Assembly: GCA_026388765.1 (NCBI GenBank) | Contig: JAPLJC010000169.1 | Location: forward strand, 1 to 55,138 | Reading direction: 5' to 3' | Length of the DNA stretch: 55,138 nucleotides | Source: Deltaproteobacteria bacterium | GTDB taxonomy: Bacteria; Desulfobacterota; Desulfobaccia; Desulfobaccales; 0-14-0-80-60-11 | Made by a program: the position numbers and the translations under genes | In this document: positions 46,961-50,960 of the stretch, piece by piece | Layout: each line of letters starts with the position of its first letter | How positions within the stretch are numbered: the first letter of the stretch is position 1 | Notes under the pieces: model-generated | What the model was told of the DNA's origin: nothing | The model's input: the letters and a program-made list of their open reading frames with translations, nothing else | Database searches by the model: none

Positions 46961-47845
46961 TTAGATATCTCTCCTGGCAACCCACTGCGTATGTTCCCTT
47001 GAGAAGGCATTTTCTGTATCGCTTACAAATCTAGAAAAATCCTCCTCCGTCTTGGTATCATCTGCTAAGGCAGATATTATTGATATTTCATGTGCTGCTA
47101 AACTGTATGATGTGGATAGGTCTCCAAAACGTTTAGCCTGCAACCATGAAACAATAGATGCTGCGCCAACAGCAAATACCTGTGTTGGTAGGTACTTCCA
47201 ACTTGGAAAAGCTACTCTCAAAATCACACAAACTACAGCCATTATATTAACAGCTACTAGCAAAATGAAATATTTCCGATTTTGCTTTTTATTTATCACA
47301 GCTTTTAGGCTATACCAGTTGAGTTGGTTTTCGATTCGAAGTTTCTTGTAAATTGATTTCCTAGTTTGGAGATCCATACTCTTAATTAATTCCATTTTTA
47401 TGTTAATTGCATCATGTGTGGCAGATTCCCCCGAAAGTTCTTTCGTAACTTCCCTATTTTGAATAAGAATTAATTGAAGATCAGATAAAAAGAATTTTCT
47501 GGCTTCTATATCGGGACAATCATACGGCTCAGCGCGCATCATGTAACGCCACGTTCTCGTTTTTACTGACTCAGCGACTGCCCTAGCAGTATACCATTTC
47601 CGATCATGCCTCTTTGCTGCTAAGAATATACAAATGGATAGAGCACCCAAAAATGATGCTGCTGAAATAATGGCCAATAATTTTGAATCACCTAAAAAAA
47701 GCGCAATTATCACCCCGAGGATTAACAAACCTAAGTAGGAACAAAGACATCTATAATATATTTGCTGGGACTTTTTAGATTCTGTATCTGCTGCCTGATA
47801 CAGGCCAGGATAGTCCCCTTCAGTGAAAGTTATTTCCTCGTTCAT
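46961..47845 (-). CDS. DUF4231/SLATT membrane protein, candidate defence effector
   Basis: This 294-residue protein has four transmembrane helices in two pairs (about 33-51 and 56-77; 192-209 and 221-236). Each pair is followed by the SLATT-type helical motif: 'WYTARAVAESVKTRTWRYMM' (84-103) and, at the C-terminus, 'FSREHTQWVARR' (281-292). DUF4231/SLATT proteins are predicted pore-forming effectors paired with nucleotide-signalling or TIR enzymes. It is last in a three-gene operon after two TIR-type genes (ATGA overlap). AT-rich codons set it apart from the surrounding genome. Membrane permeabilisation is inferred. Confidence 0.82.
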   Translation of the reverse strand: MNEEITFTEGDYPGLYQAADTESKKSQQIYYRCLCSYLGLLILGVIIALFLGDSKLLAIISAASFLGALSICIFLAAKRHDRKWYTARAVAESVKTRTWRYMMRAEPYDCPDIEARKFFLSDLQLILIQNREVTKELSGESATHDAINIKMELIKSMDLQTRKSIYKKLRIENQLNWYSLKAVINKKQNRKYFILLVAVNIMAVVCVILRVAFPSWKYLPTQVFAVGAASIVSWLQAKRFGDLSTSYSLAAHEISIISALADDTKTEEDFSRFVSDTENAFSREHTQWVARRDI

Positions 47846-48342
47846 AGCTCAAGTTGCTTGAAAATTTCAATTGGATAATGACGATCGCCAACTTCTTTTG
47901 GATCATGTCTTGCATATTCATCAGGGAAATTATCAAGGGCATACTGAATTATGTTAGCTTTAAAAGGAACATGTACAATGTACCTACCACGTAGGATAGG
48001 AGGACACCTTTCTGGATCGTATTCCCGCTTTCCATTGAGGTTTACAGCCACAATCGGCAAATTTAAGTTTAACGTAATTTCGAGTTCCCAGCGGACAAAT
48101 CTGTATAAATTCTTCGTTTGTTCACCTACCAAAACAATCACCTGCTTCGCGGATGAAAAACGCTCACGAAGTTTCCGCTTTACTGTTTCTTCCGAAGCTC
48201 GTTCTGTAATTACATTTAAATCATGGGCATCATGAAAATTAAAAGAAACATTTTGATTTGATTTCCACCCTTTCATGTAGGCATAGGCCCACATGTCATT
48301 ATCCCCATCAAAAATCACATATGTTTTATTTCTATAACTCAT
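47842..48342 (-). CDS. MTH538/DUF1863 TIR-like protein (ThsB-like)
   Basis: This 166-residue protein fits the MTH538 TIR-like family, to which Thoeris ThsB belongs: N-terminal 'KTYVIFDGDNDMWAYAYMKGW', 'FNFHDAHDLN', the central 'KQVIVLVGEQTKNLYRFVRWELE' with a candidate catalytic Glu86, and 'LPIVAVNLNGKR'. ThsB proteins sense phage and make NAD-derived signals. AGGAGG lies five bases before ATG 48342, inside the end of the upstream TIR gene (TGATG overlap), so that start is preferred over GTG 48345. The product signal is unknown. Confidence 0.83.
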   Translation of the reverse strand: MSYRNKTYVIFDGDNDMWAYAYMKGWKSNQNVSFNFHDAHDLNVITERASEETVKRKLRERFSSAKQVIVLVGEQTKNLYRFVRWELEITLNLNLPIVAVNLNGKREYDPERCPPILRGRYIVHVPFKANIIQYALDNFPDEYARHDPKEVGDRHYPIEIFKQLEL

Positions 48343-48887
48343 CACAACCTCCTACTAGAAATCCACTCACTTAATCGGATTGCAGTGTTTTCGCGATGTT
48401 TTAGAACAAGCCATTCAGGCTCTTTTCCTTCAAAATTACCCCAGATTACCCTTCGATAAAGACCAAGATATTCTTGCTCAGACCAAGTTTGTTCATATAA
48501 TTTCTCAGCAGATGGAAACAAAGCAACATTGCTTATGCTATTTGCACCATCTCCTAAACCCAGCTCCCATGGTATCCAAGAGCTATCTTTTGTTTTTGGA
48601 GTTACAAACAAGACAAATTTCCCACAAGTCTGAACCGCAGTTCGCAGGCGGTCCGCCGTTGCAGTAAAATCATCCTGGGGCAATTCTGAATCACGCTCAT
48701 CTACATATACCCGTGCACCATGGCCTTCAAGAATTCGAATAACACCGGGCACCAAATCATGATCATCTGATGAATGGGAAAGAAAAACATTTTTTCCCTG
48801 AATATCGGCTGCCTTTTCAAGAATCGCGCGCCGATCTATTTCTTTCCCTATTTCCCTTAATTCATCAAATGTAATGAAGGCTCTCAT
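48342..48887 (-). CDS. TIR-domain protein, first gene of the defence operon
   Basis: This 181-residue protein has a short helical N-terminus (1-30), then a TIR domain: 'KNVFLSHSSDDHDLVPGVI' (32-50), 'ARVYVDERDSELP' (58-70), 'FVLFVTPKTKDSSWIPWELGLG' (91-112). Glu108 in WIPWELG is where bacterial TIR NADases have their catalytic Glu. It is a different TIR subtype from the MTH538-like protein encoded next. It may be an NADase, a sensor or a second signal maker. It is strongly AT-rich for this genome, so probably acquired. Confidence 0.83.
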   Translation of the reverse strand: MRAFITFDELREIGKEIDRRAILEKAADIQGKNVFLSHSSDDHDLVPGVIRILEGHGARVYVDERDSELPQDDFTATADRLRTAVQTCGKFVLFVTPKTKDSSWIPWELGLGDGANSISNVALFPSAEKLYEQTWSEQEYLGLYRRVIWGNFEGKEPEWLVLKHRENTAIRLSEWISSRRL

Positions 48888-48901
48888 AACATTCTAAGTG
48901 C

Positions 48902-48927
48902 ATCAAGTTTAAATAAAAATCAAGTTT
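48902..48927. promoter_or_regulatory. Direct repeats ATCAAGTTT upstream of the TIR operon
   Basis: ATCAAGTTT at 48902-48910 and 48919-48927, 17 bases apart (AAACTTGAT on the transcribed strand), lie within 40 bases of the TIR start. They may be promoter or regulator sites; the first also overlaps the gene-island junction. Confidence 0.35.
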
Positions 48928-48929
48928 TT

Positions 48930-49087
48930 TTCTCCCACCTCAACAAGTCCACCACCTGGGCCAGGGTGCGGCCTTCCTTGATCTCCTCCCGGATGCGGTT
49001 TTCCTTCTCCAGGACGTCCATGGCCCGGTTGGCGTATTCCACCGCCAGGCTTTGGGGCAGGTGCATCACGCCGTCGTCGTCGACCAG
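48930..49087 (-). pseudogene. Truncated copy of the 3' end of an rraA-type gene
   Basis: About 157 bases match the 3' end of the hexulose synthase-RraA gene at 49679-49837 with only about five differences. They encode 'DDDGVMHLPQSLAVEYANRAM...' and end EKKT instead of EKKV. The N-terminal part is missing and the upstream end runs into a GTAGGGCGGG palindrome. The stop codon comes from the AT-rich island DNA, so the island boundary falls in the last codons of this fragment. Confidence 0.85.
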
Positions 49088-49670
49088 CCCGTAGGGCGGG
49101 AAAGCGAAGCGCATCCCGCCTTTAGCATTACATTTTGAGCAGTTGCTCTTGGGCCTTTGGCCCGCCCGTAAATCATGCCAACTTCCTGCTGGGCGCACCC
49201 CTAACTTTGCACCTTGAACCTTGAACACTTCCACCGGGTCAACTGTCTCTGCTGTTCTGGAAATTTCTCTCCCCTGGCCTTACCTTATCTGCATGTGTAA
49301 CTTGACCGCTCTACCCCCGGACCGCCCGGCCGCCAAGCGGCAACAATGCGGTACAACACCGGTGCTTCGGCGGTCCCGGACCGCTCAGCCAGCGCCACCT
49401 CAGCGGACTAAAGTGAGCCAAATAAGATACTTATGCGAAACGAACTGCGGCATTTTATCAGGTATCGGCACAGGCTGGCCCCGATTGGCCTCTTTTTTCG
49501 ACTTGAAGTCCCTGCGAAACTGTGCGGCTCACCAGGAAAACTTAAGAATATGCGCTACTTGGCTGATGCACGATTTTCCAATCCCTAAGTTCAACCTGGG
49601 ATTGCCTTTTTCGCCGCCAGGCCCAGCTTGGCCCCCATTTCCGTTCCCCAGTTCAATTTGGGAACGAGAA
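49088..49670. other. Gene-free region between the rraA fragment and the hxlA-rraA gene
   Basis: No gene is supported on either strand; long frames antisense to the downstream gene are shadows. It contains a GTAGGGCGGGAAAGCGAAGCGCATCCCGCC palindrome (49091-49120, given in part as its arms GGCGGGA/TCCCGCC), a short CCTTGAA heptamer pair (49212-49225) and two TTGGGAAC-type hairpins near 49579-49605 and 49643-49668. Confidence 0.5.
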
Positions 49671-50960
49671 TTACACCTTCTTCTCCCACCTGAGCAAGTC
49701 CACCACCTGGGCCAGGGTGCGGCCTTCCTTGATCTCCTCCCGGATGCGGTTTTCCTTCTCCAGGACGTCCATGGCCCGGTTGGCGTATTCCACCGCCAGG
49801 CTTTGGGGCAGGTGGACCACGCCGTCGTCGTCGCCCAGGACCCAGTCGCCGCTCTCCACCTTGACGCCGCCCACCCGGATGGGCACCCCGATCTCGCCGA
49901 AGCCCTTGGGTTCCCCGGCATTGGGCATCACCAGGCGGGAAAAGGCCGGAAAGCCCAGCTTAGTGATGTCGCCGGAGTCCCGGATGGCCCCGTCAATCAC
50001 CACGCCGCTCAGCCCCCGCTGCAGGGCCGAATTGGTGGCCAGCTCCCCCCAGATGGCGGGCCCGACGCCGCCGGCGTCGATGACCACCACGTCCCCCGGC
50101 TCGGCCAGGTCGATTGCCTCCACCGGCTTGGCCCAGTCCCCGGGATAGGTGCGCACCGTCAGGACCTTCCCCAGCAGGCGGGCCCCCGGAAACAGGGGCC
50201 GTATCCCCTCCAACACGCCGCTCCGGTGCAGGGCGTCGGAGAGGTTGGAGCTGGAGACCAGCTCCAGCACGCCGCGAATCTCTTCGGCTCCCACCCGCTT
50301 GAACAGGGTGGTGGGGATGACCGCGCCTTCATCCAGGGCGCGGCGAATCTCCCGGGTGGCGAGCCCGGGGTCCTTGGCCTTGGTGATGGCGCCCCCGACG
50401 ATGACGTAGGCCGCCCCGTGGGCCACCGCGGCCGCGGCGGTCTCGGAATTGACCCCCCCGGCCACTCCCACCGGCACCTGAACCGCCTGGCTGACAGCAG
50501 CCAGGATGGCGAAAGGGTCCAGACCCCGCATCTGTTCGTCGATGGCCACGTGCACCGAGATGTAGTCCGCCCCCAGCGCCGCCACCTGGACGGCCCGGGC
50601 CACGGGGTCGGCCACGGCGATGAGGTCCACGGCGATCTTGGCGCCATAGTTCTTGCCGGCCTGGATGCATTCGGCAATGGTGGCATCGGTGGCGGTGCCC
50701 AGGACATCGACGATTTGGGCGCCGGCCTTGGCCGCCACCTCCACTTCGGTGCGGCCGGCATCCATGATCTTCATGTCGGCCACGATGACCTTGCCGGGAA
50801 AGAGCCTTTTTAACTCCCGGACCGCATCCAAACCTTCACTCTTGATCAGCGGGGTGCCGTCCTCGACCCAGTCCACCCCTTCGGGCACGGCCAACTGCGC
50901 CACATTCACCGCCCGATGCAAATCCACAAAGTCCAAAGCTAATTGCAATATTGGAGGCAT
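49671..50960 (-). CDS. 3-hexulose-6-phosphate synthase fused to an RraA-like domain
   Basis: The 429-residue protein has an N-terminal HxlA barrel (1-210; 'LQLALDFVDLHRAV', 'VIVADMKIMDAGRTEVEVAAKAGA', 'VPVGVAGGVNSETAAAAV') joined to an RraA-like domain (225-429; 'ARLLGKVLTVRTYPGDWAKP', 'GDVVVIDAGG', 'DGAIRDSGDI'). The first domain condenses formaldehyde with ribulose 5-phosphate or runs the reverse for pentose supply. RraA-like domains can be aldolases or decarboxylases as well as RNase E regulators. The partner isomerase gene lies 116 bases upstream. Confidence 0.92.
   Translation of the reverse strand: MPPILQLALDFVDLHRAVNVAQLAVPEGVDWVEDGTPLIKSEGLDAVRELKRLFPGKVIVADMKIMDAGRTEVEVAAKAGAQIVDVLGTATDATIAECIQAGKNYGAKIAVDLIAVADPVARAVQVAALGADYISVHVAIDEQMRGLDPFAILAAVSQAVQVPVGVAGGVNSETAAAAVAHGAAYVIVGGAITKAKDPGLATREIRRALDEGAVIPTTLFKRVGAEEIRGVLELVSSSNLSDALHRSGVLEGIRPLFPGARLLGKVLTVRTYPGDWAKPVEAIDLAEPGDVVVIDAGGVGPAIWGELATNSALQRGLSGVVIDGAIRDSGDITKLGFPAFSRLVMPNAGEPKGFGEIGVPIRVGGVKVESGDWVLGDDDGVVHLPQSLAVEYANRAMDVLEKENRIREEIKEGRTLAQVVDLLRWEKKV

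Follow-up and report, generated by a model that had tools for sequence, protein, structure and literature searches.

The window analyzed here is the whole stretch of DNA (55,138 nucleotides). The products of a three-gene operon on its minus strand are classed as TIR_2 (P0003), ThsB_TIR/PF08937 (P0002) and tandem SLATT_3-SLATT_1/DUF4231 (P0001); their positions are listed in Table 1. The initial annotation had described three tightly overlapping genes and had called their products, by eye, a TIR protein, an MTH538-like TIR protein and a SLATT/DUF4231 protein. Both descriptions are borne out: the ORF coordinates and the junction sequences (TGATG and ATGA) show overlaps of a few bases, and profile matches from Pfam, NCBIfam and PADLOC recover the same families. 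P0002 is annotated with a GTG start. A better start is the ATG at 48342, which yields a protein of 166 amino acids and is the likely start because AGGAGG is found 5 bases ahead of it. No RNA elements were found when scanning the region, and the promoter and terminator scans gave scores no better than those of shuffles.

Table 1. Positions of the operon genes and adjoining features within the window.
Feature	Position	Strand	Description
P0003	48342..48887	-	TIR_2 protein of 181 aa; F35/E108 candidate active site
P0002	47842..48345	-	ThsB_TIR, assigned to EcThsB2 / ThsB-subfamily-9 type; Y8 and E86; C-terminal tail with Y156
P0001	46961..47845	-	tandem SLATT_3-SLATT_1 (DUF4231) membrane protein of 294 aa; proposed effector
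AT-rich acquired block	46961..48900		orf80-hps interval; based on GC profile, GC3 and synteny
Partial copy of hps/RraA 3' end	48927..49087	-	161 nt; original at 49678-49838; adjoins the block

P0002 matches the Pfam family ThsB_TIR (PF08937, 7.7e-18) and, over its full length, a PADLOC ThsB model (7.6e-66). It also aligns along its length with PDB 8v6t (1.4e-32), which we read as EcThsB2 from the crystal structure reported in PMC11204291 and the chain sequence. According to Shi et al. 2024 (PMC11204291), Y8 of EcThsB2 is within hydrogen-bonding distance of the catalytic E89, and the protein has a C-terminal tail of about 20 residues. The alignment and residue counts show that P0002 keeps the tyrosine (Tyr8), the glutamate (Glu86) and a tyrosine in the tail (Y156). 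Glu86 (numbered from the ATG) and Glu108 of P0003 had been put forward as candidate catalytic residues, and each turns out to be invariant in the alignment of its own family. With Y8, E86 and its position in the tree, P0002 has the Tyr active site of type II ThsB proteins (subfamily 7-9 type), and by homology we assign it to the EcThsB2/ThsB-subfamily-9 type. In the ThsA-anchored set of PMC11204291 the EcThsB2 subfamilies are confined to TM-macro ThsA (type II). The same paper reports that the single ThsB of BaThs, which is of the same type as EcThsB2, produces His-ADPR, and that EcThsB2 showed no in vitro NADase activity.

P0002-like genes were detected in four of the 395 phylum genomes. On plasmids and viral contigs, relatives adjoin either a TM-macro ThsA (e.g. 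L032, L033, L035-L038, L067, L070-L073, L077-L091 and L095) or a SLATT gene (L002, L004, L006, L007, L010, L026, L027 and L076), and the two effectors often occupy the same gene position beside P0002-family TIRs, with overlapping ends. The active-site tyrosine is present in all 24 macro-linked rows of the alignment and in 9 of the 12 SLATT-linked rows, the glutamate in every row. In a tree of 40 rows, the eight rows that are SLATT-linked and of the Tyr type, P0002 among them, group in one clade (100/98) that falls within the family common to the TM-macro-linked members. The effector label is strongly clustered on this tree (3-4 changes, against 10-13 in shuffles), and the Phe-type sister group (L016-L018) is likewise SLATT-linked. 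Nesting of the SLATT-linked TIRs inside the macro-linked (type II) TIRs is nonetheless not proven, because the AU test does not reject a simple split into two separate groups (p 0.22).

Two further relatives of P0002 were encountered. Elsewhere in the same genome (L117, 1483-2811; G000:C203 around 17805) a second ThsB_TIR-like protein of 125 aa adjoins a convergent SLOG cluster2 gene. In the phylum genome G026 there is a broken P0002-like gene (L064, 3368-3558; G026:C136) made up of pieces with 70% and 67% identity in two frames; neither SLATT nor P0003 is matched in the 5 kb examined there.

For P0003, the matches are to TIR_2 in Pfam (1.1e-8) and, over the full length, to the PADLOC ThsB model PDLC00436 (1.7e-56); P0003 keeps F35 alongside the invariant Glu108. 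The nearest relatives are 42-46% identical and directly adjoin a SIR2-SLOG ThsA in three loci (L041, L042 and L044), while in L039 a relative is found in the same locus as such a ThsA. Judging from its sequence, P0003 is a member of the family that supplies the second ThsB (TIR) in type I (SIR2-SLOG) Thoeris, as it occurs in TIR-SIR2-TIR loci. More distant relatives adjoin PDC-M50A (L065) or a patatin-SLOG protein (L066). Because the P0003 family is thus found beside SIR2-SLOG ThsA, PDC-M50A or patatin-SLOG, such TIR families commonly exchange effectors. In the phylum P0003-like genes were detected in ten of 395 genomes. A P0003-like gene (47%) is among four TIR genes in G363 that are adjoined by a gene for a 218-aa protein (L062, 4515-5171). 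This protein has a hydrophobic stretch near its N-terminus, matches nothing in Pfam and is possibly a further membrane effector.

The third protein, P0001, matches SLATT_3 (residues 13-163, 1.4e-35) followed by SLATT_1 (166-288, 3.3e-36) in Pfam, as well as DUF4231 in Pfam/NCBIfam. Its two halves are weakly similar to each other (30%, E 0.008). An AF2 model computed from non-plasmid alignment rows is all-helical and confident (pLDDT 85.8, pTM 0.82). Hydropathy reveals hydrophobic segments at 33-51, 56-74 and 193-211, and a model helix spanning 221-263 suggests a fourth one around 221-240. Profile matches, helical model and hydrophobic segments together place P0001 in the SLATT family. Of the 34 residues invariant among SLATT proteins, 30 are located outside the membrane spans and many are polar or aromatic; they include the motifs W84..R88..E92..K95T96..W99 and S282REHT286.W288. 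We regard these non-membrane residues as a candidate surface for ligand binding or assembly. No known nucleotide-binding domain was found in P0001, and searches of the PDB by profile and by fold returned no solved structural relative or ligand domain. Weak matches to viral SLATT proteins were all that came up. Neither the PADLOC models nor the annotated phages gave a match to P0001.

The operon differs strongly in composition from its surroundings: GC3 is 0.30-0.33 in its genes against 0.87-0.88 in the neighbouring hps and pcm. Four relatives (L106, L109, L110 and L111) keep the order hps-orf80-pcm-pbp without the operon. Both observations support the proposal, made initially, that the operon was recently acquired; it is now set between housekeeping genes on the chromosome. 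The SLATT protein is found in this genome only among the 22 of the bacterial family, and SLATT_3 scores above the cut-off in two of the 395 phylum genomes. The initial annotation had also placed the AT-rich block between repeat-bearing GC-rich flanks. GC3 confirms that the block is AT-rich, but repeats do not flank it. The repeat search yields a single direct pair (161 nt, 96%; blastn 155/161) whose two members lie on the same side of the block, and the member next to the block partially duplicates the 3' end of hps/RraA (region 48927-49234 of the window). The idea of a repeat-flanked insert was therefore rejected.

A foreign insert of this kind might also be silent and decaying, without a present function. 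The strongly different GC3, the occurrence in one of 22 family genomes and the broken P0002-like remnant in G026 are in line with such a fate. We consider it very improbable here, however, as all three frames are intact and overlapping and keep the residues that are invariant in their families.

Whether TIR and SLATT genes are associated more generally was examined in several collections. The scan of GTDB genomes for P0001 relied on six short peptides and returned ten loci, which should be taken as a lower bound rather than as an exhaustive count; viral contigs added five more, and ten of 81 plasmid records were examined in detail. In loci found through SLATT only, a TIR gene directly adjoins the SLATT gene in 24 of 25 cases. 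In one of these (L019) the TIR forms the N-terminal part of a STAND protein, and in the exception (L022) two insertion sequences separate the SLATT gene from a TIR fragment. The TIR search, rather than the SLATT search, contributed one more pair (L076). To give an idea of the background, PF08937 matches twice in the operon's own 3.7-Mb genome and in one of 14 control genomes. As for the recurrence of the arrangement, the TIR-SLATT pair thus holds up well, whereas the exact triplet of TIR_2, MTH538 and SLATT was not found in the searched plasmids, viral contigs and 395 phylum genomes and is a single observation.

The partner TIRs belong to the P2-Tyr, P2-Phe, L001-like, L009-like and L020-like families, and one SLATT type pairs with at least four TIR families. 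This is what would be expected if TIR inputs are exchangeable and the SLATT output is constant. Co-evolution of the Tyr-type TIRs with a SLATT clade of their own was not seen; their SLATTs are scattered among those with other TIRs. Two or more TIRs are found near one SLATT in L005, L018 and L026-L029, and a P0002-type TIR is the sole recognised TIR beside SLATT in L002, L004, L006, L010 and L076.

Several other gene associations were observed at these loci. A TPR-S or 'TRAFs-binding' protein recurs beside TIR-SLATT (L028, 5431-6657; L018, 3201-4457; L005, 3734-4972; L029, 5980-7227) and may be an additional component. A longer conserved operon with SLATT at or near its end (L008/L009, 2784-6873; L026, 803-5375; L027, 794-5372) encodes a TIR-TGT-like fusion, an Ogg-HhH DNA glycosylase-like protein, QueC, a TIR and SLATT, joined on plasmids by a P0002-type TIR; it resembles a TIR/deazaguanine-type defence system of its own. 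On a Sinorhizobium plasmid (L044, 4055-5360) genes for TIR_P3-like and DUF4231 proteins directly adjoin a type I Thoeris locus.

In Serratia and E. coli, mobilizable plasmids of approximately 5 kb (L023 and L025) carry TIR and SLATT on opposite strands, filling much of the available space and adjoining mob and RelE/ParE-NadS genes. Such a setting could point to a pair that serves the maintenance (addiction) of plasmids or other elements instead of anti-phage defence. Yet the divergent or overlapping TIR orders, the multiple TIRs and the TPR-S proteins are unlike toxin-antitoxin pairs, and the present operon is chromosomal, lies between housekeeping genes and has two TIRs of ThsB families, which makes this explanation quite improbable.

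How does the operon relate to the established Thoeris types? ThsB is represented by the two TIRs, in view of their full-length PADLOC matches and the homology of P0002 to 8v6t. The effector differs. Neither the SIR2-SLOG ThsA of type I nor the TM-macro ThsA of type II is present in the operon, P0001 being devoid of a macro domain, and neither was found in the 93%-complete draft genome, in queries run without a positive control. The absence of ThsA claimed at the outset is thereby upheld within that scope. A type IV assignment does not fit either: no protease domain scores above the cut-off in the three genes, and P0001 is a SLATT protein, not a caspase-like one. Lacking the effector of type I, II or IV, the operon should be filed under none of these. 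PMC12390725 also names a 'type III' Thoeris.

The resemblance to type II, which employs TM-macro ThsA and His-ADPR, nonetheless extends beyond the EcThsB2-type Tyr-Glu site and tail of P0002, since in both cases a TIR gene is followed by a gene for a membrane protein with overlapping ends. The difference is that the effector here is a tandem SLATT four-helix protein without a macro or other recognisable ligand domain. With type I, which employs SIR2-SLOG ThsA and gcADPR, the operon shares the kinship of P0003 to the second TIR of TIR-SIR2-TIR loci. Protein families and gene order thus support the Thoeris-like layout suggested initially, in which a membrane protein takes the place of ThsA. Outside Thoeris, DRT10 (UG17 RT, ncRNA and SLATT) likewise has SLATT as proposed membrane effector, and SLATT is needed for its phage defence (PMC12632851); its proposed signal, however, is repeat cDNA made by the reverse transcriptase and not a product of TIR chemistry. 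The PADLOC candidate PDC-M50 combines a small membrane protein with a ThsB-like TIR, and in L065 a P0003-type TIR is found beside PDC-M50A, but that PDC-M50A protein does not match the SLATT models.

The closest precedent in the literature concerns firmicute phages, for which TIR-SLATT neighbourhoods were described in 2022; PMC9503650 proposes the SLATT effector to be regulated or gated by an ADPR derivative, and pore formation by nucleotide-gated SLATT proteins is predicted there and in PMC7159879. Pairing and gating idea are already published, so the initial annotation overrated the novelty. The present case differs from those neighbourhoods by having two ThsB-family TIRs and a fused SLATT_3-SLATT_1, and by its place on the chromosome of a non-firmicute bacterium; the passage describing the phage neighbourhoods draws no link to Thoeris subfamilies. 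What appears to be new, by homology, is the joining of ThsB proteins with type I and type II kinship to a tandem-SLATT effector.

Taking the evidence together, we propose that the operon is a Thoeris-like anti-phage signalling system in which an NAD-derived messenger made by TIR activates a SLATT membrane effector, and we give this reading a probability of roughly 0.6. A phage cue would be bound by one or both TIRs, which would then assemble and convert NAD+ into an ADP-ribose-type messenger. P0002 is the likeliest maker given its EcThsB2-type Tyr/Glu active site, and since it is of that type the leading candidate messenger would be a histidine/imidazole-ADPR conjugate (His-ADPR). The messenger would bind the conserved non-membrane helices of P0001, which might oligomerise, cluster or open in the membrane and thereby arrest growth of the infected cell. 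Extending His-ADPR to the family as a whole is not warranted because SLATT also pairs with Phe-type TIRs (L016-L018). The presence of same-type SLATTs beside Phe-type and other TIRs implies one of two things: different TIRs produce signals of a single class, or the ligands of the SLATTs differ. Points against the messenger relay also include that P0001 has no known nucleotide-binding domain and no relative among solved structures, that EcThsB2 had no in vitro NADase activity (PMC11204291) and that the exact triplet was seen once. Our literature search turned up neither experiments with this operon or another TIR-SLATT pair nor a SLATT protein for which a small-molecule ligand has been reported.

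Alternatively, the TIRs themselves may kill by depleting NAD+, with SLATT as a membrane sensor or anchor that activates them upon perturbation of the membrane by phage. Direct NAD+ depletion is known for many bacterial TIRs (PMC12847820), and from the overlapping gene ends the genes are probably co-expressed, as this explanation would have it. It is unlikely, though: P0002 is of the Tyr type, of which the studied member EcThsB2 has no NADase activity and which is tied to messenger synthesis (PMC11204291), and SLATT fills the slot of the messenger-gated ThsA beside the same TIR family.

Within the messenger relay, P0003 could provide a second signal, or it could sense phage and recruit P0002. 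The initial annotation had suggested two triggers for the two TIRs, which may be right but is one option only; by analogy, a recruiter and an enzyme may be the alternative. In S. aureus Thoeris, ThsB2 is switched on by ThsB1, the TIR that binds the major head protein (PMC12578639). A comparable division of labour, with P0003 binding a phage protein and recruiting or activating P0002 as the sole source of messenger, is a real possibility, if short of an even chance. The recurrence of two or more TIRs near one SLATT agrees with it. On the other hand, P0003 keeps F35 and E108 and may therefore be catalytic, and the five loci in which a P0002-type TIR is the sole recognised TIR indicate that a P0003 partner is not generally needed.

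More tentatively, the operon may represent a further Thoeris type. Tandem-SLATT proteins would then be receptors for messengers of the His-ADPR class or related ADPR conjugates, swappable with TM-macro ThsA and serving as one output shared by several TIR sensor families, of which type I and type II kin are found together here. ThsA-requiring pipelines will overlook such systems; the PADLOC models applied here recognise the two TIRs but not SLATT. In several defence contexts SLATT proteins are predicted to act as membrane effectors, and the ligand of one is directly testable in this case because the product class of the subfamily of its TIR partner is named (His-ADPR). Overall, ThsB TIRs swap their effectors, which include SIR2-SLOG, TM-macro, PDC-M50, patatin-SLOG and SLATT proteins.
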